Positions 34,530-45,135 of a stretch of DNA of 64,000 nt are shown here, piece by piece; within the stretch, counting starts at the first letter, position 1; each line of letters starts with the position of its first letter. Location: assembly GCF_900090235.1 (NCBI RefSeq), contig NZ_LT607750.1, positions 1,500,501 through 1,564,500 of the forward strand, written 5' to 3'. Under the pieces are notes generated by a model, which did not search any database, was not told the origin of the DNA, and was given only the letters and a program-made list of their open reading frames with translations. The DNA is from Micromonospora echinaurantiaca (GTDB lineage: Bacteria; Actinomycetota; Actinomycetes; Mycobacteriales; Micromonosporaceae). Both the position numbers and the translations under genes were made by a program.

Positions 34530-36417
34530 TTATTGACGGGTCGCTGCTGCCTCGCGGCCGAGGCGGGCCCGGGCTCGGGCCATACGAATGGCCGCGGTCA
34601 AGGCCGAGATGTCGTAGGCGCCGTAGTGGCGGCGGCCGTTGATGAAGAACGTCGGGGTGCCGGACACTCCGCTGTTGTCAGCGGAGTCGATGTCGCTGTC
34701 GATGCGGCTGGCATGGGCGTGGCTCATCAGATCGTCGTGGAACCGTTTCTGATCCAGACCGAGTTCGCCGGCGTCTTTGATGAGATCAGTGATGTCCAGG
34801 TTGTCCTGGTGGTCGAGCAACAGGTCGTGCATCTGCCAGAATTTGCCCTGAGCGGCTGCTGCTTCGGCGGCCTCGGCTGCTAGCCGGGCTTGCGGGTGCA
34901 CGTCTGACAGAGGCAGGTGACGCCACACGAAACGCAGGTCGGCGTCGCCCAGCAACTGCCGGACGGCCGGCCGGCCTTCCCGCAGTACGGGCACTGGAAG
35001 TCGCCGTACTGCACCAGCGTCACCGACGCACCGGCTGGGCCGCGGACGTGGTCCTGCTTCTCGTCGACCGCTGGGATGAGGTCGATCAGCTCCGTCACGT
35101 CGCCGAAGAGCGCCCGGATGCGCTTGTCCTGAGGCAACGCGCTAGCGACGCGGAACGCGATCCGGGTCAGCACTGAGGATACGATCGCGGCGCTGAGCAC
35201 CCCGACTTTGGCCTCGGCCAGTTGGTCGCCGGTGAAGGCCAGGCTGGCGATCAGCAGCGACACCGTGAAGCTGACACCGGCGATCGTGCCGCTGCCGAGC
35301 ACGCCCGCCCAGCCCACGGCCGGACGGATGCGCCCGTGTGAGATCCAGGTGAGCCCGGCCGAGGTGCCGATCACGGCGAGCGGCTTGCCGACGACATACC
35401 CGAGCAGCACGCCCCAGGTGACAGGCGACGCGAGCGCCTGGGCCAGGAACGGACCGTCGATGCTGATGCCGGCGTTGGCTAGGCCGAACAGCGGCACGAT
35501 GACGTAGCTGGACCATGGGTGGTAGATGCGCTGAAGGCGGTCGTTGGGCGATAGCGTATTCGCGAGGCCGATCGAAGCCGTACGCGCGAGCGTGGGCGTC
35601 GGCTGCTCACGGAACGACCGGAACAGTCCGCTGACCTTCTCGAGCTCAGCTCGGCCGGGAGAGTAGGCAAACGCGGTCAACCCGATGGCCAGTCCGGCCG
35701 CCACCGGGTCGACTCCGCTGACCAGCAGCGCGCCCCACATCACGATGGCGGCCGGCACGTAGCCCAGCCACGTCGGACGCCGCCTGCGCGGATGGCCAGC
35801 ATGACCGCGAACGCCGCTCCGGCCACCACGATGGGCATCACCGTGATGTCGTCGCTGTAGACCAGGGCGATGACGATGAGTGCGATCAAGTCGTCGACCA
35901 CGAACACGGTGAGCAGGAAGATCCGGACCCGGTCGGGCACGCCCCGGCCGAGCAGTGCCAGCATGCCCAACGCGAGGGCGGTGTCGGTCGACATAGCCAC
36001 GCCCCAGCCGTGCGCGCCCGGCCCGCCGTGGTTGATCCCAGGAAGATCAGTACCGGGATCAGCATGCCGATCACGCCGGCCACGCTGGGCAGCACGAAAC
36101 GTCGCCGGTCGCGTAGGTCGCCCAGGTCGAACTCGCGCCGCGCCTCAAGGCCGACGACAAGGAAGAACAGCGTCATCAAGCCGCTGTTGATCCAGGTCTG
36201 CAGGTCGTGGGAGAGCTCGAGGTGCCCGAGGCGCAGGGACAACTGGGTGCGCCATACGGCTTCGTAGGAGCCGAGGGTCGATGTTGGCCCAGAGCAGTGC
36301 GGCGAGGATGGCAGCCACGAGCACGCCGGCGCTGCCGGACTCAATTCGCAGGAAGGCTCGCAGCGGTGACGCCAGGTTTTGCTTCCAGATCGTTCGGCCG
36401 GTCTTGGTTTCGGTCAC
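34530..36417 (-). pseudogene. nhaA: NhaA Na+/H+ antiporter fused to DsbA-like domain, four frameshifts
   Basis: Five collinear minus-strand pieces together make a full NhaA-thioredoxin fusion: MTETKTGRTIWKQ to about 36275, LQTWINSGLMTLFFLVVGLE to about 36040, VAMSTDTALALG and VFVVDDLIALIVIALVYSDD to about 35770, the second half of the antiporter with VPLFGLANAGI to about 34975, and a DsbA tail. The tail has the CPYC centre and [11 protein letters not shown]. Each join is a one-base shift at a recognisable point. Either the gene is dead or the assembly has errors in this stretch; the nearby IS and MFS relics support real decay. An intact version would exchange Na+ for H+ across the membrane. 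Confidence 0.8.
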
Positions 36418-36509: not shown

Positions 36510-36722
36510 CGCCGCCCCAGCTGTGGTCGGCTGCGGAAAGAGCGACGAGGCCCGCCGATGCCTGCAGGGCGCGGGCGACTATCAGTGAGCTCATGGTCGG
36601 GACGACCACGCACCTGATGGACGCGATGGCGAGCCCCGGCGATACCCACGAGGATGATTCGCCTGCGACCGTAGCGGTCGCCCTGGGAGCGCGCCGGCCA
36701 GCAGGATCAGCGCGGCCACTTG
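36510..36722 (-). pseudogene. Fragment of an EmrB/QacA-type MFS drug transporter
   Basis: Across frame changes the minus strand reads VAALILLAGAL, then GDRYGRRRIILVGIAG (motif A of the 14-helix drug/H+ antiporters), then LAIAS and PTMSSLIVARALQASAGL. Only the second to fourth helix region survives. It lies between the broken nhaA gene and osmC. No intact start or C-terminus was found. Confidence 0.55.
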
Positions 36723-36782
36723 GGGCGGAGCGACACCCGCTTGCTGCTCGGCCGTGATCGCCGAGCTGCACGCGGCCTGATC

Positions 36783-37208
36783 TCAGCGCCCGACGAACTC
36801 GGTCCTCACGCTCCATGCGAACTGAATCAGCAGGGTCACCGGGGACCTCTCGGCGATCTCATGCATCACCTTCAAGTCGTCGGGGTCAGGTTCCTCGCTG
36901 AGCGTGATCGTGCGCTGCAGGTAACGCTCTGCGCCTTCCTGCTCGGGTTCGTGGTAGTCGATCTCGACGGTGATGTCGCCGGCGGTGTCGTACTTGTAGT
37001 CGACATACTGCCGCAGCGTCTGAGCAGTGCACGACGCGAGCGCCATCAACAGGTACTCCGTCGGCGTCGGGCCTTCGCCGAGTGCGCCGTTGTGCGGTTC
37101 ATCGGCGACGAACGTGAAGCCGCGGGTGGTCATGTCCGTGCGCCGGCGCTCAGTGGCCGGAAGGACAACTCGAGCGGATGCGACGACACGATCCTGATCG
37201 GTTTCCAT
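36783..37208 (-). CDS. OsmC-family protein with a single cysteine
   Basis: 141 aa from ATG 37208, with AGGAAGG 8 nt upstream; the longer frame to 37310 is rejected for this reason. The OsmC pattern GEGPTPTEYLLMALASCTAQTLRQY is clear, with Cys60 in the peroxidatic position. The second conserved Cys normally seen in a RCPVH-like segment near the C-terminus is Ser here (AERSPVTLLI). OsmC/Ohr proteins reduce organic or other hydroperoxides through a Cys pair. Loss of the second Cys suggests use of an external thiol or a binding role. A perfect GGACT-N4-AGTCC site lies 133 nt upstream. Confidence 0.85.
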   Translation of the reverse strand: METDQDRVVASARVVLPATERRRTDMTTRGFTFVADEPHNGALGEGPTPTEYLLMALASCTAQTLRQYVDYKYDTAGDITVEIDYHEPEQEGAERYLQRTITLSEEPDPDDLKVMHEIAERSPVTLLIQFAWSVRTEFVGR

Positions 37209-37340
37209 CAGCCGCGCCTTCCTGTAGATCCAGTGGTGACGGTCCAGGTGTGCGAGTCCGGCAGCCGAGCCGCAGTCTGAGCGGGGGCTGTGGCCGGGCG
37301 TATCACCCATGACCGAGTACCTCCGCAGGCTAGCTTTCGC

Positions 37341-37354
37341 GGACTCTATAGTCC
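37341..37354. promoter_or_regulatory. Candidate TetR operator GGACT-CTAT-AGTCC (osmC side)
   Basis: Perfect 5-bp inverted arms with a 4-nt spacer, upstream of osmC. Read on the minus strand it contains TATAGA, which could overlap the -10 box of the osmC promoter. It is the same motif as at 38761 and 40160. Confidence 0.6.
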
Positions 37355-37800
37355 AATTGGCTGGTCGCTGCGAGACCTGCTCGGCCGTCGTGACCGTGAC
37401 GACAGGGTGGCCCTAGGTGCAAGCGACAGGCGGATCAGGGCGAGATGCCCAGTCGAACCCGGTTAACGCCAAGCCCCAGGAATGGACTTGCTGGTCCGTT
37501 AAGGCTAGGGCGTGTCGACGTTCGCGCGTCGCCTCGCGCGGCTCGGACGGACCGAAAACCGGACAGCGTGAAGGGAATAGATGTATAGGGATGTAGTTGC
37601 ACTACAAGGCGATCCAACGACGCGAGGAACGCCTCGACGGCAGCTTTCTCGCCGCGGTGAAGACGACCGGCACATACGGTCGGCCAACGTGTCGCGCCAA
37701 GACCCCTCGCACGATGTCGAGGCAGCATTGCTCGAACAGATAGGCGCCGGCATGCCGGCACTGGTGCCCGCGCCGAGCCGGGGTAGGCCGGGCAGCAGCG
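37355..37800. other. Unassigned stretch with a degraded frame
   Basis: No intact gene. It holds a one-mismatch operator-like site at 37484-37497 and a small inverted repeat TGTAGT-TGC-ACTACA at 37592-37606. Broken minus-strand frames here (for example one with FEQCCLDIVRGVLARHVG) look like remnants but were not identified. Base composition is locally more AT-rich than the surroundings. Confidence 0.45.
37484..37497. promoter_or_regulatory. Operator-like site, one mismatch (GGACT-TGCT-GGTCC)
   Basis: Matches the GGACT-N4-AGTCC repeat except for one base in the right arm. No gene start is close. It may be a decayed or accessory copy. Confidence 0.3.
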
Positions 37801-37932
37801 CGGCTTGGCGCTCAAGACCTAGAGGATCCTCCGCCACCGGGATCGATGCTGCTGGCGATGGTTACGGAGGCATTCGGCGAGGTGGTTCAGGGTTCGGCTG
37901 GACAGCGGGATCGTGGCGGGGTGAGACAGCAT
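37800..37932 (-). pseudogene. N-terminal relic of an IS5-like transposase
   Basis: From an ATG at 37932 the minus strand reads MLSHPATIPLSSRTLNHLAE then a basic stretch ending RSRWRR, close to the N-terminus of actinobacterial DDE (IS5-like) transposases. A stop follows at 37819; one frame further on, GLERQAALL fits the next part of such proteins. Everything after that is unrecognisable. It lies just behind the TetR stop codon. Family placement is from memory of the sequence pattern. Confidence 0.45.
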
Positions 37933-37998
37933 GGCGAGGCTACAGGTCGGGGCATCGGATCTTGGTTCAACTGCTGCCTTACCTGGAGCGCCGCGCTC

Positions 37999-38718
37999 TC
38001 ATCGATCTCCGGGCTGCTCGCACCCGACGCGAGCAGTCTGATCACGACTAAGGGGCCCAATTACCGGGGTCGGCTCACCGGACGGCTCCACGAGGAACGA
38101 TTTGACGTGTTCCAGCGCCATGTCCAGAGCAACTTCCATGGGTGCGACGTTGTGCGCGGCGTTCGCCAGCAAGTAGCCGCCTTGCAAAGCCGCCATCAAT
38201 CCCGTGGCCAACTTCTCCGGGTCGGCGTCCTGGCGCAGTGCACCGCTGTCCCGCATCCGGTGCAGGCCATCACTGATCAGCTTCTCCCATGCCGCAAACG
38301 TCTCCGACAGAGACGATCGAGCCTGCTCATCTTGATCGGACAGCTCGAGAGCCATCGACCCGAGGCCGCACCCGTACTTGCCGTTGTTCAGCGAGTTGGC
38401 CTGAACCAGGGCGTCACGCCACCGGACCAGCCCTGAGAACGACCTCAGTCGTTCGAGCCCTGCACGCTCACGCTGAAGCACAAGCGCGCCTCGATATTTG
38501 ACCAACGCGCGCACGAGCTCCTGCTTGTCGGCGAAGTGGTGGTAGAGCTGAGACTTGCTCGTCTGGCTTGCCTTGCGGACGTCGTCAAGGGTCGTCGCGT
38601 TCACTCCGCGCACGAACATCAGCCGGTTCGCTGCCTCGAGGATCCGCTCTCGCGTCGCGATGCCCCGCTTACTGATCCTCCGCTGATTCGGAGGCGCAGC
38701 CACCTGCTCGTCGCTCAT
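37999..38718 (-). CDS. TetR-family transcriptional regulator, likely local stress regulator
   Basis: 239 aa. The N-terminal HTH (about 18-65) reads TRERILEAANRLMFVRGVNATTLDDVRKAS with recognition helix region SKSQLYHHFADK. The C-terminal ligand domain has a GCGLGSMALEL segment (C117), the place where related TetR proteins show a conserved GC(P/x)xGSxxxE motif; the Cys is a candidate redox or electrophile sensor (inference). A second Cys lies near the C-terminus. A perfect GGACT-N4-AGTCC site sits 43 nt before the start, consistent with autorepression, and the same repeat precedes neighbouring oxidative-stress genes. Confidence 0.9.
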   Translation of the reverse strand: MSDEQVAAPPNQRRISKRGIATRERILEAANRLMFVRGVNATTLDDVRKASQTSKSQLYHHFADKQELVRALVKYRGALVLQRERAGLERLRSFSGLVRWRDALVQANSLNNGKYGCGLGSMALELSDQDEQARSSLSETFAAWEKLISDGLHRMRDSGALRQDADPEKLATGLMAALQGGYLLANAAHNVAPMEVALDMALEHVKSFLVEPSGEPTPVIGPLSRDQTARVGCEQPGDR

Positions 38719-38760
38719 CTGTCAAGTGTATCCAGCGCACCAGATATCCCAGGAAGAATG

Positions 38761-38774
38761 GGACTTCAGAGTCC
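38761..38774. promoter_or_regulatory. Candidate TetR operator GGACT-TCAG-AGTCC (autoregulatory)
   Basis: Perfect inverted arms, 43 nt upstream of the TetR start codon, where self-repression is expected for this family. Confidence 0.65.
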
Positions 38775-38882
38775 ATCCGGCGCCATGTCGCGTTCGCGCG
38801 ACGGTGAAGGACGAACGCATCCGCCGCCGGCTTAGCGAGCTGTGCCACCACCGCTAGATCATCGATCGGACGAGCCTTTGCG

Positions 38883-38896
38883 GGACTATCCGGTCC
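38883..38896. promoter_or_regulatory. Operator-like site, one mismatch (GGACT-ATCC-GGTCC)
   Basis: Second, weaker copy of the repeat 165 nt upstream of the TetR start. It could be an auxiliary site for the autoregulated promoter. Confidence 0.35.
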
Positions 38897-39012
38897 TAGC
38901 TGAAACGAGTGCTGGTCAGGAGTTGCTCGGCCACCTGTCGTGAGCGGTCCGCCGGAGAGAGCCGCACCCATCCGGCCGACTCCTCGTCCGGGCCGACCAC
39001 CTCGGCCCCGGG

Positions 39013-39043
39013 CCGGCGCGCGGACCCGGGGTCCGCGCGCCGG
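39013..39043. terminator. Strong hairpin after msrBA
   Basis: Inverted repeat with left arm CCGGCGCGCGGACC and right arm GGTCCGCGCGCCGG (14 bp) around a 3-nt loop, 5 nt beyond the msrBA stop codon. No T tract. Confidence 0.75.
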
Positions 39044-39048
39044 AGGTG

Positions 39049-40044
39049 TCAGGCAGTCGCCCGCTTCGGAAGCTTCCACCCAGGGCGAGGGAAGTGGCAG
39101 GTGTAGCCGTTGGGGTAGGTCTGCAGGTAGTTCTGGTGCTCGGGCTCGGCCTCCCAGAAGTCGCCCGCCGCGGTGACCTCGGTGACGACCTTGCCGGGCC
39201 ACAGCCCCGAGGCGTCGACGTCCGCGATCGTGTCCTCGGCGACCCGCTTCTGCTCGTCGTTGGTGTAGAAGATCGCCGAGCGGTAGCTGGTGCCGATGTC
39301 GTTGCCCTGACGGTTCTTCGTCGAGGGGTCGTGGATCTGGAAGAAGAACTCGAGCAATGCGCGGAAGTCGGTCTTCTCGGTGTCGTAAACGACCTCGATG
39401 GACTCCGCGTGGGTGCCGTGGTTACGGTAGGTGGCGTTCGGGACGTCGCCGCCGCTGTAGCCGACGCGCGTCGACACGACGCCGGGCTGGCGGCGGAACA
39501 ACTCCTCCATGCCCCAGAAACAGCCGCCGGCGAGGATCGCCTTTTCGGTGGTCAAGTCGTCTCCTAGCTTGTCGTCGGTGCCGGAGTTGGTGTCACTCGT
39601 GAACAGGGTGCGGTACTCGCCGTACCCCGCGTTCTCCAGGTCGTCGAGGTGGATGAACCGCAACGACGCGGAGTTGATGCAGTAGCGCAGTCCACCCTTG
39701 TCGGGAGGACCGTCGTCGAAGACATGGCCGAGGTGACTGTCCCCGTGCAGCGAGCGGGCCTCGATCCGGATCATCCCGTGGCTGGAGTCTTCGCGCTCGA
39801 CCACGTTCGCCTCGGCGATCGGCTTCGTGAAGCTCGGCCAGCCGGAGTTGCTGTCGTACTTGTCGACCGATGCGAACAGCGGCTCGCCGGACACGACGTC
39901 GACGTAGATGCCGGGCTCGTGGTTGTCCCAGTAGGCGTTGGCGAACGGACGCTCGGTGCCGTCCTGCTGGGTCACGCGGTACTGCTCCGGGTCGAGCCGC
40001 GAAACGGCTTCCTGGTTCTTGCGGTACTGGGTCTGCTCAGACAC
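39049..40044 (-). CDS. Bifunctional methionine sulfoxide reductase MsrB-MsrA
   Basis: 331 aa from GTG 40044, with GGGAG just upstream; the frame to 40224 lacks family similarity. The MsrB domain comes first (about 5-145; [17 protein letters not shown], catalytic C122 in [11 protein letters not shown]; the zinc CxxC pairs are absent). After a short linker, MsrA follows (about 165-331; catalytic C175 in [14 protein letters not shown], and C316 near the end as a likely resolving residue). It repairs R- and S-methionine sulfoxide in one chain, using thioredoxin. A perfect operator-like repeat lies 116 nt upstream and includes TATAGT on the coding strand. Confidence 0.93.
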
Positions 40045-40159
40045 AGCTCTCCCTTCACGGCCTTTCGACGCGAAGCTGCGGAACCAGGCGAAGCGCGCCT
40101 GGACGCGCACATACAGGCGTCCTCCGGGTCGGTAGTATTCCCGCAGCCTCACCTTGGAC

Positions 40160-40173
40160 GGACTATACAGTCC
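40160..40173. promoter_or_regulatory. Candidate TetR operator GGACT-ATAC-AGTCC (msrBA)
   Basis: Perfect inverted arms. On the msrBA coding strand it reads GGACTGTATAGTCC, including TG then TATAGT, which fits an extended -10 box, so binding would block the promoter. Confidence 0.65.
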
Positions 40174-40269
40174 AGATGGGTTGGCCCGAAATGTCGGACG
40201 ATTGCCCTCCTTTCCTGGCTTCAACTGTGGATACGTACGGCAACAGTAGCGCCCGCTTGATCCAATAGT

Positions 40270-40283
40270 GGACTTGACAGACC
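40270..40283. promoter_or_regulatory. Operator-like site, one mismatch (GGACT-TGAC-AGACC)
   Basis: 245 nt upstream of the quinone reductase gene and 97 nt from the msrBA site. Only the fourth-last base differs from the perfect repeat. Confidence 0.4.
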
Positions 40284-40527
40284 AGTTTTGTCGCGACTAG
40301 GTTCGGGGCGTGCCGCCGACTGGGTGCCTCGGCTAGGGAGGAGCTGTCCGACTTGCCCGCCGGCGCCGAGGTCGACGGACGTCTCGCCACTCCCGGCGAC
40401 ACCCTCGCGCCCCAACCGCCACCGATCAACGGGGTGAGGCGCCGAGGCCTGGGGCGCAAATGCTAGGGAAACGGAAATTTGCTCCTCGTGACAGCGCAGG
40501 CGAGGACCGGATACAAGGAGGTGCCGG

Positions 40528-41445
40528 ATGAAGGCGATTGTGGTGACAGACGAGGCCGCGGGAACGGCCGGGATGGCGCTGGTGGAGCGGCCTGAGCCGG
40601 AACCGGCGATCAACGACGTCGTCGTTCAGGTCCACGCGTCGGGATTCGTCCCGACTGAGACGGCGTGGCCCTCGACCTGGACCGATCGCCTCGGCCGTGA
40701 CCGGACGCCGTCGATTCCCGGGCACGAGCTGGCCGGAGTGGTCACCGCTCTCGGATATGGCACGACGGGACTGTCGGTGGGGCAGCGGGTGTTCGGCCTC
40801 ACGGACTGGACCCGCGACGGCACCCTGGCGGAGTATGTGGCCGTCGAGGCGCGCAACCTCGCGCCGCTGCCCGGCGACGTCGACTTCACGGTGGGCGCGA
40901 GCCTGCCGATCTCCGGCCTGACCGCCTGGCAGGGACTGTTCGAGCACGGCCGCCTTCAGGCGGGGCAGAGCGTCCTCGTGCACGGAGCGGCCGGCGCAGT
41001 CGGTTCGACGGTGACGCAGCTCGCACGTGAGTTCGGCGCCTACGTCGTCGGCACCGGGCGCGCTGCCGACCGTCAGAAGGCGCTCGACTTCGGCGCGCAG
41101 GAGTTCGTCGACCTCGACAACGACGTCCTCGAAGCCGTCGGTGGAGTCGACCTGGTCTTCGATGTCATCGGCGGCGACATCGGGAAGCGATCCGCGGGCC
41201 TGATTCGAGCCGGAGGAACCCTGGTGTCCGTCGTCGGGCCGCCCGAGGCGCGGCCCGCGGGCGGCCTGGCGATCGATTTCGTCGTGACGCCCGATCGCGC
41301 CCAACTGAATGAAATCGTCCGGCGGGTGCGGGACGGGCGACTGCGGACGAACATCGGCAACGTCGCGACCCTCGACGACGCCGTCGCCGCTCTCAATCCG
41401 ACCGAGCGGATCACCGGGAAGACGATCATCCGCGCTCGTCCGTAA
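40528..41445 (+). CDS. NADP-dependent quinone oxidoreductase (zinc-free MDR family)
   Basis: 305 aa; AAGGAGG 5 nt before the ATG fixes the start. The medium-chain reductase pattern is present: GHELAGVVTALG, VGQRVFGL, then the nucleotide loop VHGAAGAVGSTVTQLA and GGVDLVFDVIGG. Zinc-binding residues of alcohol dehydrogenases are lacking, so it belongs with quinone oxidoreductases (QorA-like). It would reduce quinones or reactive alkenals with NADPH, a common defence against electrophiles. Its leader carries an imperfect copy of the GGACT-N4-AGTCC repeat. Confidence 0.9.
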   Translation: MKAIVVTDEAAGTAGMALVERPEPEPAINDVVVQVHASGFVPTETAWPSTWTDRLGRDRTPSIPGHELAGVVTALGYGTTGLSVGQRVFGLTDWTRDGTLAEYVAVEARNLAPLPGDVDFTVGASLPISGLTAWQGLFEHGRLQAGQSVLVHGAAGAVGSTVTQLAREFGAYVVGTGRAADRQKALDFGAQEFVDLDNDVLEAVGGVDLVFDVIGGDIGKRSAGLIRAGGTLVSVVGPPEARPAGGLAIDFVVTPDRAQLNEIVRRVRDGRLRTNIGNVATLDDAVAALNPTERITGKTIIRARP

Positions 41446-41578
41446 GGAATCGGGGACAGCGAACGGGGTGCCCTTCCTGCCGTCGGGCAAGTCGAGCTGG
41501 ATGACCGGCGCCATCGCCGACGCCATGGCCGGCGGCAACTGACCCTCGGGGACGGAGCACCGGGGTCACTGCGGCGGG
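41446..41578. other. Spacer with short unassigned frame
   Basis: The plus strand ends an open frame GKSSWMTGAIADAMAGGN then stop at 41541; no start or family could be given. It may be the tail of a lost gene. Confidence 0.3.
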
Positions 41579-41608
41579 GCTGCGGACGCACCCGTACGCG
41601 TCCGCAGC
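41579..41608. terminator. Hairpin with 11-bp stem
   Basis: GCTGCGGACGC and GCGTCCGCAGC flank an 8-nt loop. It lies 134 nt after the quinone reductase stop and is followed by a threefold CCCGCAG repeat to about 41622. Confidence 0.55.
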
Positions 41609-41769
41609 CCGCAGCCCGCAGCCACCGGGGAACCACCCGCAACCGCGGCGAGACCGTGGCTCGGCCGGCCCGAGAGCCCGGCGGACACGTACTCTGGCAG
41701 CATCCGCAGGTCGGTCACCTCGAGGAGCTCGTCGCCCGCGGCATCGGCGGCTCGGTCCATCGGCCAAGT

Positions 41770-41958
41770 TCACCCTCCCGGCGACCAGTGCGGCCCGTTC
41801 GGCGCGTCCTCGACGACGCCCCCGGCCGCCGCCAGCCCGTTCAGCAGAGAGTCGACCGTCGCGTGGTCCTTGCGCCCTGGCCAACTGGCGCTGCTCCAGC
41901 GTGACGTCGACGAGCTTGCCGAGCGCATCCCGGGCCTCGTCGCCTGCGCCCACCTAGC
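41770..41958 (-). pseudogene. C-terminal fragment of cysteinyl-tRNA synthetase-like gene
   Basis: Two minus-strand pieces joined by one frame change read EARDALGKLVDVTLEQRQLA and then KDHATVDSLLNGLAAAGGVV followed by EDAPNGPHWSPGG and stop. This is the ending of CysS proteins (the RKxKDxxxADxLRDxLxxxGVxxEDTPxGPxW segment). The catalytic and anticodon-binding parts are absent. It is probably a relic of a duplicated cysS, or of a stand-alone CysS-C-terminal-domain gene. Confidence 0.6.
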
Positions 41959-42040
41959 CTTCACACGATGTCCCCCGGCCGTTGGGGACGCCTGAACCCT
42001 TCCTCAGCGATCGGCGCGTGTTCAGACGCGACGCGCGTGT

Positions 42041-42451
42041 TCAATGCTCATGCCCGGCTGCGCGCGACGGAGGGAATGCCGGGTCTAGAACGTCGGCATA
42101 TTCCGGATGAGCATCGACGAATGCTGTCGCGAACGGACACGTCACGGTAGCGGTCTTCCCTTGCAGGCGCAGCTCGTCGAGGACGCCGCCGATGAGCCTG
42201 GCGGCGACTCCCTTCCCCCGGAACTCGGGGAGCACGGATGTCGCCAACAGGATGACGCGGCTGCCGACCTCGTTGTAGACGAGCCCAGCGGCTGTCCGGT
42301 CCCCAATCGTGGCCTCGTAGATGCCGCGCGCGCTGTTGTTGGTGATGACGAGGTCTTCCGCGTCGGGCGCGGTGGCTCCCGACAGGTTCGAGCCACCCGA
42401 ATCCTGTTCGGCACTGGTCAACGTGATCATGTCCTCGGCGGTGTTCGCCAT
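42041..42451 (-). CDS. Small GNAT N-acetyltransferase (YjdJ-like)
   Basis: 136 aa; AGGAGACAAC precedes the ATG. The acetyl-CoA loop is VLPEFRGKGVAARLIGGVLDEL. Following it, VTCPFATAFVDAHPEYADVL is typical of the short YjdJ-type (DUF1794-like) acetyltransferases of about 100 aa. An extra N-terminal stretch of about 30 aa (Thr/Ser/Gly-rich) precedes the domain. Substrate unknown. Confidence 0.85.
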   Translation of the reverse strand: MANTAEDMITLTSAEQDSGGSNLSGATAPDAEDLVITNNSARGIYEATIGDRTAAGLVYNEVGSRVILLATSVLPEFRGKGVAARLIGGVLDELRLQGKTATVTCPFATAFVDAHPEYADVLDPAFPPSRAAGHEH

Positions 42452-42606
42452 GTTGTCTCCTGAATCTCGCGTCGGGTCAGCGACCTGGGGTGTGCCCAGT
42501 CAGGTCGGATGAAGTGGCAGGAGGATCCCGCCTCGGGCTATCGGTTGGTCGACGTCGGAGACGTTGGCATCATCTGGTTCGCCCCCATTTGCCGGAATCT
42601 CGGTGT

Positions 42607-42900
42607 TCACGCGTTGGGCACCGGAAGGCTGACGACGAGCGATCCACGCAGGTCGACCAGGGCCCGGCCGGTCGTGCGCACCAGGCGCATGACGACGTCC
42701 TCGCAGCCGGGACATCGGGCGACGAGGCCGGGCGCTCGGTCGAACACGCGCATCGCGGCCAGCGGACGGGTCATCCGGCAGCCGGCGCAGGTGAGCTCGG
42801 CAACGGTGAGGTCGGTCCCGATGATCTCGCCGAGCGGTCCGGCAAGGGCGTTACCGTCCACCCAGGGTGCGTCGTCTGCTCCGATGTTGGTGGTCGACAT
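42607..42900 (-). CDS. DUF6510-type small zinc-ribbon protein
   Basis: 97 aa. ATG 42900 has GGAGG 6 nt upstream. ATG 42906 overlaps the reductase stop by 4 nt but has the same GGAGG directly against it. Two CxxC pairs (LTCAGCRMT and ARCPGCEDV) form a probable zinc ribbon. The surrounding DGNALAGPLGEIIGTD and LVRTTGRALVDLRGSL match a small actinobacterial family (DUF6510) commonly encoded beside molybdopterin oxidoreductases and their flavin reductases. Likely a small accessory protein. Confidence 0.75.
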   Translation of the reverse strand: MSTTNIGADDAPWVDGNALAGPLGEIIGTDLTVAELTCAGCRMTRPLAAMRVFDRAPGLVARCPGCEDVVMRLVRTTGRALVDLRGSLVVSLPVPNA

Positions 42901-42902
42901 GG

Positions 42903-43643
42903 TCATCCTCCGGTGGGTCCGAAGCGTTCGGTGCGGATGTTCGCGGGGTCGTGGCCGATGTCGACGAGAAGGTCGGCCACGGTCTCGACGAATCCGGTGG
43001 GCCCGCAGACGAACGCCACAGTGTCGGCATCACGGGGCCAGGCGACGCGGGCGAGGGCGTCCGCGTCCAGTCGTCGGGGTGGGACCGGCCAGCCGTGGGG
43101 CGCGACCCTGGTATAGACGTGAGTGACGGTGACGCGACCATCGCCTGCGGCCGCCACAGCTGCAAGATCCGCCGTGAACAGCGCATCCGACGGGGATCGG
43201 GTCGAGTAGAGCAGTCTGGTGGGATTCGTCGCCGCACGCACCATCGACATCAGAGGCGCCACGCCGGACCCGCCGCCGATCAGCAACGCCGGGCGCGGAT
43301 CGGCGGTTCGGCGTACGAACCAGCCGCCGAGCGGCCCACGGATCTCGAGCTGGTCACCCAGCTCGGCAACGTCGACGAGGTACGGCGAGACCTCACCGTC
43401 GGTCACCGCCTGGACAGTCACCTCGAGCCGGTCGGGCCTCGGGGCGGACGAGATCGAGTAGCTGCGGTACGCCGTGTAGCCGTCGGGAGCCGTCAATCGG
43501 ACGTCGACGTGCTGGCCCGGCACGTGGCCCGTCCAGCCGTCGACGTCGAGGACCAAGGTCCGCGCCGTCGCAGTCTCCGCCCGGGTGGCCGCGACGGTCG
43601 CCGGCTGCCAGGTCAGTCTGCCTGGTACCGCTGCTCGCGCCAT
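42903..43643 (-). CDS. Ferredoxin reductase-type flavoprotein (FNR fold)
   Basis: 246 aa from ATG 43643; it overlaps the end of the molybdopterin gene by 31 nt, suggesting translational coupling. The FAD-binding motif RSYSISSAP, the NAD(P) loop GGGSGVAPLMSM and the C-terminal CGPTGFVE are intact. No 2Fe-2S domain follows, so electrons go from NAD(P)H through flavin to a partner, here presumably the molybdopterin enzyme encoded before it. Downstream, the DUF6510 start overlaps or nearly overlaps its stop. Confidence 0.88.
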   Translation of the reverse strand: MARAAVPGRLTWQPATVAATRAETATARTLVLDVDGWTGHVPGQHVDVRLTAPDGYTAYRSYSISSAPRPDRLEVTVQAVTDGEVSPYLVDVAELGDQLEIRGPLGGWFVRRTADPRPALLIGGGSGVAPLMSMVRAATNPTRLLYSTRSPSDALFTADLAAVAAAGDGRVTVTHVYTRVAPHGWPVPPRRLDADALARVAWPRDADTVAFVCGPTGFVETVADLLVDIGHDPANIRTERFGPTGG

Positions 43644-44209
43644 GGGTCGCCGTAGTTGTGGTAGCCGGCCGTCTCCCAGAACCCAGGCTCGTCGTCGAGA
43701 CGCAGTTCCAGAGCGCGCAGCCATTTCGCGCTCTTCCAGAAGTACAGGTGAGGAACGAGGAGACGAGCTGGCCCGCCGTGCACCGGAACCAGTGGCTCGC
43801 CGTCGAACTCGTACGCCACCCAGGCCTGACCGTCGAGAAGGTCCTCAAGCGGGATGTTGGTGGTGTAGCCGCCATAGGAGTGGGCGACGACGTACTCGGC
43901 CGCAGTCTCGGCGTCGGCCAGCAACGTGTCTACGGAGACCCCTCGCCAGCGCGTGCCGAACTTCGACCAGTGCGTGACGCAATGGATGTCAACGGTCGGC
44001 TCGTCGGCAGGAAGGGCGGTGAACTCCGCCCATGACCACGTGCTCCGCTCGCCGGTCTCGGTGACCACCGCGAGCTCCCACTGGTCGAGCCCGATGCGCG
44101 GTGTCGGTCCCGCCGACAGCACCGGGAAGTCGTCCGTGCGGTACTGGCCGGGTGGGAGATCGGTGTCGTCGCGTCTGCGGCCGCCGAAACCGCGTGTGAT
44201 CACTGCCAT
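43613..44209 (-). CDS. Cytosolic molybdopterin-dependent oxidoreductase (sulfite oxidase/MsrP fold)
   Basis: 198 aa from ATG 44209, which has GGGGAGGGG upstream; the frame continues to 44608 without protein features. The Mo-pterin ligand Cys is C77 in DIHCVTHWSKFGTRWRGV, with the typical HSYGGYTTNIPLEDLL and later HGGPARLLVPHLYFWKSAKW. No Tat signal is present, unlike periplasmic MsrP/YedY. With the flavin reductase gene it could form a soluble system reducing methionine sulfoxide or another S- or N-oxide (inference from fold and context). An imperfect GGACT-type repeat lies 176 nt upstream. Confidence 0.87.
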   Translation of the reverse strand: MAVITRGFGGRRRDDTDLPPGQYRTDDFPVLSAGPTPRIGLDQWELAVVTETGERSTWSWAEFTALPADEPTVDIHCVTHWSKFGTRWRGVSVDTLLADAETAAEYVVAHSYGGYTTNIPLEDLLDGQAWVAYEFDGEPLVPVHGGPARLLVPHLYFWKSAKWLRALELRLDDEPGFWETAGYHNYGDPWREQRYQAD

Positions 44210-44560
44210 GTGCCCCTCCCCAAGTAGCGGCCGGACGGCCGCGATCCCGCTGCCATCCGTGCTTCCACTCGGCCCGTGGATGTCGATCTGGTACCCGCCC
44301 ATGGCGTCATCGTCAGCGAGCGCCCCGGTGATGAGATTCTCCTCGGTGGGGACGTGGTCGCCCGCACTCCGGCGTAAGTTAACTGGACCATCGAGTCCAG
44401 AATAAGCTGGCGTGGCGCCTGACGGCAAACCTCGCTGGCCGTCGGTGGTGTGGATCAGCAGCAGCGCGCCCGGCGGTCGTGGCGGTGCGTCCTTATCTGG
44501 CGGACGCCTCCACGGTGGGAACCCATGGACGGCATCGTCCATACATTCCCCGGCCAACCC
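44210..44560. other. Long leader without gene before the molybdopterin operon
   Basis: No credible gene. An operator-like repeat at 44385-44398 marks a likely promoter on the minus strand. Confidence 0.5.
44385..44398. promoter_or_regulatory. Operator-like site, one mismatch (GGACC-ATCG-AGTCC)
   Basis: It also forms the symmetric pair CTGGAC-N6-GTCCAG (44383-44400). It lies 176 nt upstream of the molybdopterin oxidoreductase start. Confidence 0.45.
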
Positions 44561-44824
44561 AGGTGACGCTGCACCAGACCGCATCCACAACTGCCGTTGC
44601 AGTAGCAAGCCGGTTGATCAGACAAACCCTGCGGTACAGGTGCTGTTGGCGTCTTGCTGTACGTGCCAAGGCCGCCAGTTCGATCAAAGTCTCGGCCAGG
44701 TCGTCCCGGCGGTGGGCGGAGTGTTGGCTGCGCCAGCCGCGATGTGCTCTCCGGCCTCATACAGCGCGACGTACAGATCTTCGGCGGGTGCGCGGTCGAT
44801 CCGCAGAACGATGTCATCCCGCAT
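44560..44824 (-). pseudogene. Possible frameshifted small gene
   Basis: From ATG 44824 the minus strand reads MRDDIVLRIDRAPAEDLYVA then LYEAGEHIAAGAANT and meets a stop at about 44687; shifting one frame gives RRDDLAETLIELAALARTAR followed by RQQHLYRRV. Both halves have plausible protein composition and join smoothly. No family recognised. It could also be chance. Confidence 0.3.
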
Positions 44825-45135
44825 GCGCAGACCCTAATCGCACCCTGGCGCGGCACCGGCCGGTCCAGGTCGGGATGCGCGGATCCGCCGCCGAGGGGGC
44901 GTCAGGGGCCGCACCTGCGAGACCGACGAGTCAGCCCGCCGCTCGTGCCGATGTGCGGACGTGCTCACGGTGCCCTGACTACTTGCGGTGATCACCAAGT
45001 CGGGTGTCGAGGCGAGCACTGGCGCGTGGAAGGAGCCAGCACACCGTCGCCCGGTCGGGGTGGCGTCTACTCACGCCCGGGGGCCGGGGGCCGGGGGCCG
45101 GGGGCCGGGGGCCGGGGGCGCGGTAGCGTGCGCCG
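44825..45135. other. Intergenic region with G-rich heptamer array
   Basis: No gene seen. The right end holds six tandem CCGGGGG units directly before the DUF4303 start. Confidence 0.6.
45077..45118. repeat. Six perfect CCGGGGG heptamers
   Basis: Uninterrupted tandem array on the plus strand ending 17 nt before GTG 45136. Runs of five G separated by CC can form G-quadruplexes on the plus strand, and slippage could change the distance from promoter to start. Confidence 0.9.

Follow-up and report, generated by a model that had tools for sequence, protein, structure and literature searches.

Do the repeats of the palindrome GGACT-N4-AGTCC that lie among oxidative-repair genes of Micromonospora echinaurantiaca mark a local regulon, controlled by the TetR-family protein encoded between them? 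The question was raised by a first-pass annotation of a 64,000-nucleotide stretch of contig NZ_LT607750.1 (the window, to which all positions refer). The locus comprises, in order and on the minus strand unless stated, osmC, tetR, msrBA, a divergent quinone-reductase gene (plus strand) and the genes for a molybdopterin oxidoreductase, a flavoprotein, a DUF6510 protein and a GNAT-type acetyltransferase, the last four of which we read as one operon. A pattern search of the window showed that the positions claimed for all seven sites were correct: exact copies start at 37341, 38761 and 40160, and copies with one mismatch at 37484, 38883, 40270 and 44385. Sequence comparison supports a local autoregulated TetR regulon: the predicted operators are conserved across 36 loci, and paralogous control genes mostly lack a site. 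The wiring, that is conserved predicted operators joined to this gene set, appears about as certain as comparative genomics allows.

Conservation of the palindrome among relatives

The comparison covered 48 sequences, the window and 47 loci (L058-L104), of which 36 are distinct by tetR sequence; three of these 36 come under other genus names (Planosporangium, Rugosimonospora and Asanoa). A site was counted when it had at most one mismatch or matched GGACY-N4-RGTCC and lay within 320 nt upstream of the gene, and genes were excluded if their start was cut off, if they fell short of 80% identity (84% for tetR) or if a contig end was too close. With these rules, and with expectations taken from Markov shuffles of the same sequences, a site lies 5' of tetR in 35/36 loci (0.38 expected), of osmC in 24/24 (0.41), of msrBA in 15/15 (0.10), of the quinone-reductase gene in 19/34 (0.35) and of the molybdopterin gene in 8/11 (0.11). 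Where the gene order differs (L062, L065, L068 and L083), the site still precedes the gene. Across the 140 sites found at this threshold GGAC shows a single departure, GTCC has A in place of T in 15 and the four central bases vary, part of the invariance stemming from the selection threshold itself. The first-pass annotation had proposed to look at the same promoters in relatives, where absence of the motif would have told against a regulon; the palindrome is kept at five kinds of promoter. Among the control genes, the msrBA-like genes of loci without the TetR have no site (0/6 at 65-80% identity and 0/1 below 65%; most of these loci are short, about 1.5 kb each side), nor do the quinone-reductase paralogues (0/14 at 65-80%, of which 11 lie in TetR loci, and 0/7 below 65%).

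The set is inherited patchily across 61 genomes of the genus (60 drawn, plus the genome itself). A TetR orthologue of at least 86% identity is present in 20 of them; osmC (E <= 1e-15) occurs in 15 of these 20 and in none of the 41 others (Fisher 2e-10), and msrBA, often as the msrA half only, occurs at an identity of at least 84% in 17/20 and 0/41 (Fisher 2e-12). As osmC and msrBA are confined to the TetR-positive genomes among these 61, the set is an accessory module. Beyond the genus, TetR matches were found in 34/200 genomes of the family (E <= 1e-40, own genome and distant paralogues counted), 32/397 of the order (E <= 1e-55, own genome counted) and 9/396 of the phylum (E <= 1e-40, own genome counted). 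In other genera, 17 regions (12-16.5 kb) that surround TetRs of about 50-90% identity have 35 sites between them, where 3.0 would be expected. They contain genes for quinone reductase (7), MsrBA (5), molybdopterin enzyme (4), GNAT (4), DUF6510 (2) and OsmC (1); many of the sites lie next to such genes, though not every gene has one directly upstream. A family scan of 20 neighbouring proteins of these outside regions added two candidate members, a gene of the CMD/AhpD family with a site about 27 nt upstream (L245) and a peroxiredoxin gene with a site about 125 nt upstream (L244).

Clustering at the locus is also evident within the genome. The single contig of 7,203,133 bases holds six exact copies, three of them in a 2.8-kb part of the locus; in 200,000 simulations, three of six random positions fell within 2,819 nt at a frequency of 1e-5, and in none of 20,000 did seven of the 70 one-mismatch sites fall within 7,044 nt. 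The seven matches in the window compare with a mean of 1.95 and a maximum of 6 in dinucleotide shuffles (0/100 reaching seven). The genome scan that had been suggested as a check thus found the exact motif scarce, with half its copies at the locus, and the concern that it might be common throughout the genome was not borne out. The other three exact copies fall in predicted reading frames or at their edge: two (L261 and L262) are within frames and the third (L005) overlaps the stop codon of a frame that we take to be GroEL-like, its 16 letters also being found in 15 of 16 genomes among the matches listed. Simple counting is a poorer argument, and the rarity of the one-mismatch pattern relative to its reversed control genome-wide (70 vs 197) counts against it. 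Each of the 20 TetR-positive genomes has 3-10 copies of the wider palindrome TGGACY-N4-RGTCCA (mean 6.4), and each of the 41 TetR-negative ones 0-9 (mean 3.8; Mann-Whitney p 5e-5, relatedness ignored); for its reversed control the count is 11-34. We dropped genome-wide motif counts as main evidence, since the ranges overlap and the reversed controls are higher; the signal therefore lies mainly in position and conservation.

Several observations weigh against the regulon as we propose it. Locus L062 has no site before tetR (1/36), 15/34 quinone-reductase and 3/11 molybdopterin genes have none at the threshold used, and msrBA-like genes of less than 80% identity within TetR loci have one in only 2/5. 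Outside the genus, L255 carries the genes but is devoid of sites, and L248-L251 hold a single site apiece and, a 30% flavoprotein match excepted, no enzyme genes; in L249-L251 what follows the site is a small gene that matches no Pfam family. The co-occurrence of osmC and msrBA with tetR is in part a product of linkage and common descent, which make the Fisher values look stronger than they are. A sigma-70 consensus scan of 36700-44700 found no promoter.

Promoters and the proposed switch

Promoter features were picked by eye from alignments of upstream regions. The proximal tetR operator (predicted, exact, 38761..38774) ends 42 nt 5' of the ATG and the distal one (one mismatch, 38883..38896) 164 nt 5' of it; TACACT is widely conserved before tetR and in the window lies 6 nt from the ATG, as in a leaderless transcript. 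The predicted proximal operator of osmC (exact, 37341..37354) holds a TATAGA/TATCTA-like hexamer, and a one-mismatch distal copy (37484..37497) lies 143 nt further upstream. In the gap between msrBA and the quinone-reductase gene, two predicted operators, the exact one of msrBA (40160..40173) and the one-mismatch one of the quinone-reductase gene (40270..40283), face the two divergent genes. The latter contains TTGACA (40274-40279), with TAGGTT at 40298-40303 after an 18-nt spacer, and TTGACA is seen within many quinone-reductase sites of relatives. The predicted operator of the molybdopterin operon (one mismatch, 44385..44398) is symmetric as CTGGAC...GTCCAG. This placement would fit repression by occlusion.

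Sites thus come in pairs, with start-to-start spacings of 143 nt (osmC), 122 nt (tetR) and 110 nt (msrBA/quinone-reductase gap) that are not whole helical turns; DNA looping between paired sites is possible and finds no support here. For the distal position of tetR (100-175 nt) the 36 loci yield 25 sites, and 22 sites lie at the distance of the distal osmC copy. The distal osmC site could formerly have belonged to a divergent gene. In L065 a quinone-reductase gene begins about 100 nt past it, and remnants of an Ada-type frame, several with stops or truncation, lie past it in L061, L062, L068, L080 and L084. The L062 fragment scores 59.8 bits against Pfam Ada_Zn_binding, and the window has a relic of this metal-binding domain, divergent from osmC on the plus strand (37624..37713; 90% identical to the L062 fragment over 30 residues in tblastn), and no intact gene there. 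The leader between the osmC operator and its ATG (37209-37340) is conserved as DNA and not in frame. A leader peptide was rejected, as one-base indels separate the species, and an RNA element is possible.

The conservation of the operators, their link to the genes and to the TetR, and the co-inheritance come from the comparison itself; from them we infer repression rather than activation, binding by TetR, its dimeric form, the promoter positions, the inducer and the cysteine step. In the mechanism that we propose, a TetR homodimer (37999-38718) would bind TGGACY-N4-RGTCCA, overlapping or abutting the core promoter, and so repress its own gene and the promoters of osmC, msrBA, the quinone-reductase gene and the molybdopterin operon. 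Cys117 in the ligand domain would be modified by an oxidant or electrophile that reacts with thiols (for example reactive chlorine, a quinone or a thiosulfinate), and the modified dimer would leave the DNA. Methionine sulfoxide reduction, quinone reduction, the one-cysteine OsmC and the molybdenum enzyme with its flavoprotein would then be switched on together with the repressor gene, so that the response would reset. We consider it fairly probable that TetR represses this set through the palindrome and is released by modification of Cys117; the thiol switch taken by itself is plausible, at about even chances.

The tetR gene (37999..38718, minus strand) encodes 239 amino acids, with an N-terminal helix-turn-helix (Pfam TetR_N) and a C-terminal ligand domain of the LmrA/YxaF type (TetR_C_13/13_2), both above cut-off. 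In several relatives the frame is 219 amino acids long; in the window it runs about 20 residues beyond the stop of many relatives (37999-38060, minus strand), which adds a second, non-conserved cysteine. The AlphaFold2 model has a mean pLDDT of 83.5, and the 50 Foldseek matches listed are transcriptional regulators, mostly labelled TetR. Among solved structures 3qbm and NemR come closest by both sequence and Foldseek, with NemR second each time, and the protein is, by these comparisons, a distant NemR relative. Cys117 aligns in HMMER with chain residue 108 of 4yze, taken as NemR Cys106 on the assumption of a two-residue chain offset. An alignment of the window protein with 40 of the 120 listed homologues shows it invariant in 41/41. 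From the 2,567 homologues found at E <= 1e-20, a few dozen of which were examined for sites, all 120 among the matches listed have GC-x-[LIM]-G, and 110 of these 120 have no other cysteine. The idea that this cysteine senses oxidants is thus supported in part, by its invariance and its position at NemR Cys106. The Gly-Cys motif occurring also in the TetR structures 3qbm and 3dpj speaks against it, as does the position of NemR Lys175, where this protein has Asn186 and the 41 aligned sequences mostly Glu, Asn or Ser (Lys in 1/41). A NemR-like Cys-Lys bridge is therefore not supported and seems unlikely in this protein; a thiol-reactive oxidant as the inducer is plausible.

Other readings and known systems

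The same regulon and operators could respond instead to a small molecule bound non-covalently (aromatic, quinone or flavonoid-like), with a structural role for the cysteine. The LmrA/YxaF-like domain as best C-terminal Pfam model, yxaF (1sgm) among the PDB matches, the Gly-Cys motif of 3qbm and 3dpj, the missing NemR lysine and the example of CssR, a stress TetR whose cysteines are described as not redox-active in the available part of PMC8176726, all lean that way. The target genes rather fit oxidant or electrophile damage, and the cysteine is invariant and the sole one in most of the listed homologues, which leaves the non-covalent ligand a somewhat doubtful but substantial possibility. That the palindrome is bound chiefly by a different regulator, for instance a sibling TetR with the same class of operator, we hold to be quite improbable. 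This reading draws on the TetR-negative genomes, which hold copies too, and on TetRs of 29-47% identity: in the genus loci L036-L045, 6/10 have one or two palindromes close before their gene and 4/10 none, and L221 also has the palindrome there; the half-site therefore marks a TetR branch and not this protein alone. Against such a regulator, osmC and msrBA genes of this kind are found only with this TetR in the 61 genus genomes, the proximal tetR site lies at a nearly fixed distance, and among homologues of less than 80% identity the site tracks the recognition helix S[KR][SG]QL[YF][HN] (9/15 vs 3/25, p 0.003, the pattern having been chosen after seeing the data). Chance or a compositional artefact, which might be invoked from the presence of the wider palindrome a few times in 60/61 genomes, is refuted by the conservation at five promoter kinds in 36 loci and sits poorly with clustering at about 1e-5; we regard it as negligible. 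In a sibling branch of about 30% identity (G004:C346, G024:C19 and G052:C3), two TGGACY-N4-RGTCCA copies lie 32 nt apart just upstream.

This is a new regulon of an already known type. We found no description of it among the titles and abstract openings listed from the open-licence literature, and the parts available of PMC12306174, PMC7532634 and PMC5430705 do not describe it. The nearest functional parallel would be AltR, a NemR homologue that, in the available part of PMC13178969, uses a palindrome to repress its own promoter and needs the conserved Cys100 for thiosulfinate derepression. The alt clusters, for allicin/thiosulfinate tolerance, occur in Pantoea and Pseudomonas (PMC13178969, PMC7119367 and PMC12306174, each in part). 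As far as these texts go, both systems would join an autoregulating NemR-type TetR with one critical conserved cysteine to a detoxification set of several genes in which palindromes recur, and both sets include osmC; the CMD/AhpD-family gene of L245 is a further likeness, seen only in that relative. In those same parts, the alt operator differs, being CAATCTAC-N6-GTAGATTG, and MsrBA and the molybdenum operon are absent from the alt gene lists. Conversely, we found none of dsbA, trx, gor and kef behind a palindrome here, and no alt-type dsbA, trx, ahpD or gor among the 10 window proteins scanned; a DsbA-like stretch next to osmC is fused to a broken NhaA-type frame and has no palindrome.

Escherichia coli NemR (nemRA-gloA) shares the aligned cysteine and is an autoregulated repressor of stress genes for electrophiles and bleach, as we propose here (autoregulation in the available part of PMC13178969; the Cys106-Lys175 bond in that of PMC7464077). 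It differs in its 24% identity, its Lys175, its six cysteines and its targets. Corynebacterium glutamicum CssR is likewise an actinobacterial, stress-responsive and autoregulating TetR, with a different palindrome, ABC-transporter targets and redox-inactive cysteines (PMC8176726, in part). With Bacillus subtilis LmrA/YxaF (QdoR) the common feature is the C-terminal domain family. LmrA and YxaF have flavonoid ligands, a TAGA-N4-TCTA box and other targets, and the spacing of that box differs from TGGA-N8-TCCA here. We tentatively suggest, as a rather unlikely extension of the oxidant-released repressor, that the locus is an actinobacterial counterpart of alt/NemR, a one-cysteine TetR switch for a specific thiol-reactive oxidant from plants or competitors that gathers a repair kit (MsrBA, the one-cysteine OsmC, and the molybdenum enzyme with its flavoprotein and DUF6510) under one operator class.

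The enzymes and their neighbourhood

The msrB-msrA fusion (39049..40044, minus strand; Pfam SelR and PMSR) matches NCBIfam PRK05550 at equivalog level (347.7 bits, cut-off 330), and its orthologues keep Cys175 in 35/35, Cys316 in 37/37 and Cys122 in 20/22. The two parts are fused in the window; in relatives they are separate, have an in-frame stop between them or lack a full MsrB. The OsmC-like protein (36783..37208, minus strand; Pfam OsmC) keeps a single cysteine, Cys60, and has Ser122 at what we take to be the position of the second, resolving cysteine of OsmC/Ohr peroxidases, a serine found in 30/30 orthologues. Classic two-cysteine peroxidase chemistry is therefore doubtful, and the suggestion that OsmC removes peroxides is weakened.

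The quinone reductase-like gene (40528..41445, plus strand; Pfam ADH_N and ADH_zinc_N) belongs to the zinc-binding dehydrogenase family, its best NCBIfam model, quinone_pig3, scoring 136.2 bits, below the cut-off of 296.8. The molybdopterin oxidoreductase (43613..44302, minus strand; Pfam Oxidored_molyb) had been taken for a possible MsrP-fold enzyme. Its place in the sulfite-oxidase superfamily holds, with sulfite oxidases, nitrate reductases and 1xdq among its PDB matches; identity with MsrP is unsupported, the NCBIfam MsrP model giving 36.5 bits for a cut-off of 207. It is followed on the same strand by the FAD/NAD-binding reductase partner (42903..43643; Pfam FAD_binding_6 and NAD_binding_1), the DUF6510 protein (42607..42906; Pfam) and the GNAT-type acetyltransferase (42041..42451; Pfam Acetyltransf_CG), whose gene is probably the last of the operon.

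For Micromonospora and its relatives the locus provides a stress regulon that can be tested at once, with TGGACY-N4-RGTCCA as the proposed operator for a branch of the large TetR family. It places two poorly understood groups, the sulfite-oxidase-like enzyme with its flavoprotein and DUF6510, and the one-cysteine OsmC, in an oxidant-repair context in which their functions can now be asked directly. Adjoining osmC, several frames (34530-36417, minus strand) together make up an NhaA-type Na+/H+ antiporter whose C-terminal part is DsbA-like; they match Pfam Na_H_antiport_1, DSBA and Thioredoxin_4 and are broken or affected by sequence errors. A short GGGGGCC tandem repeat lies between genes at 45077-45120.

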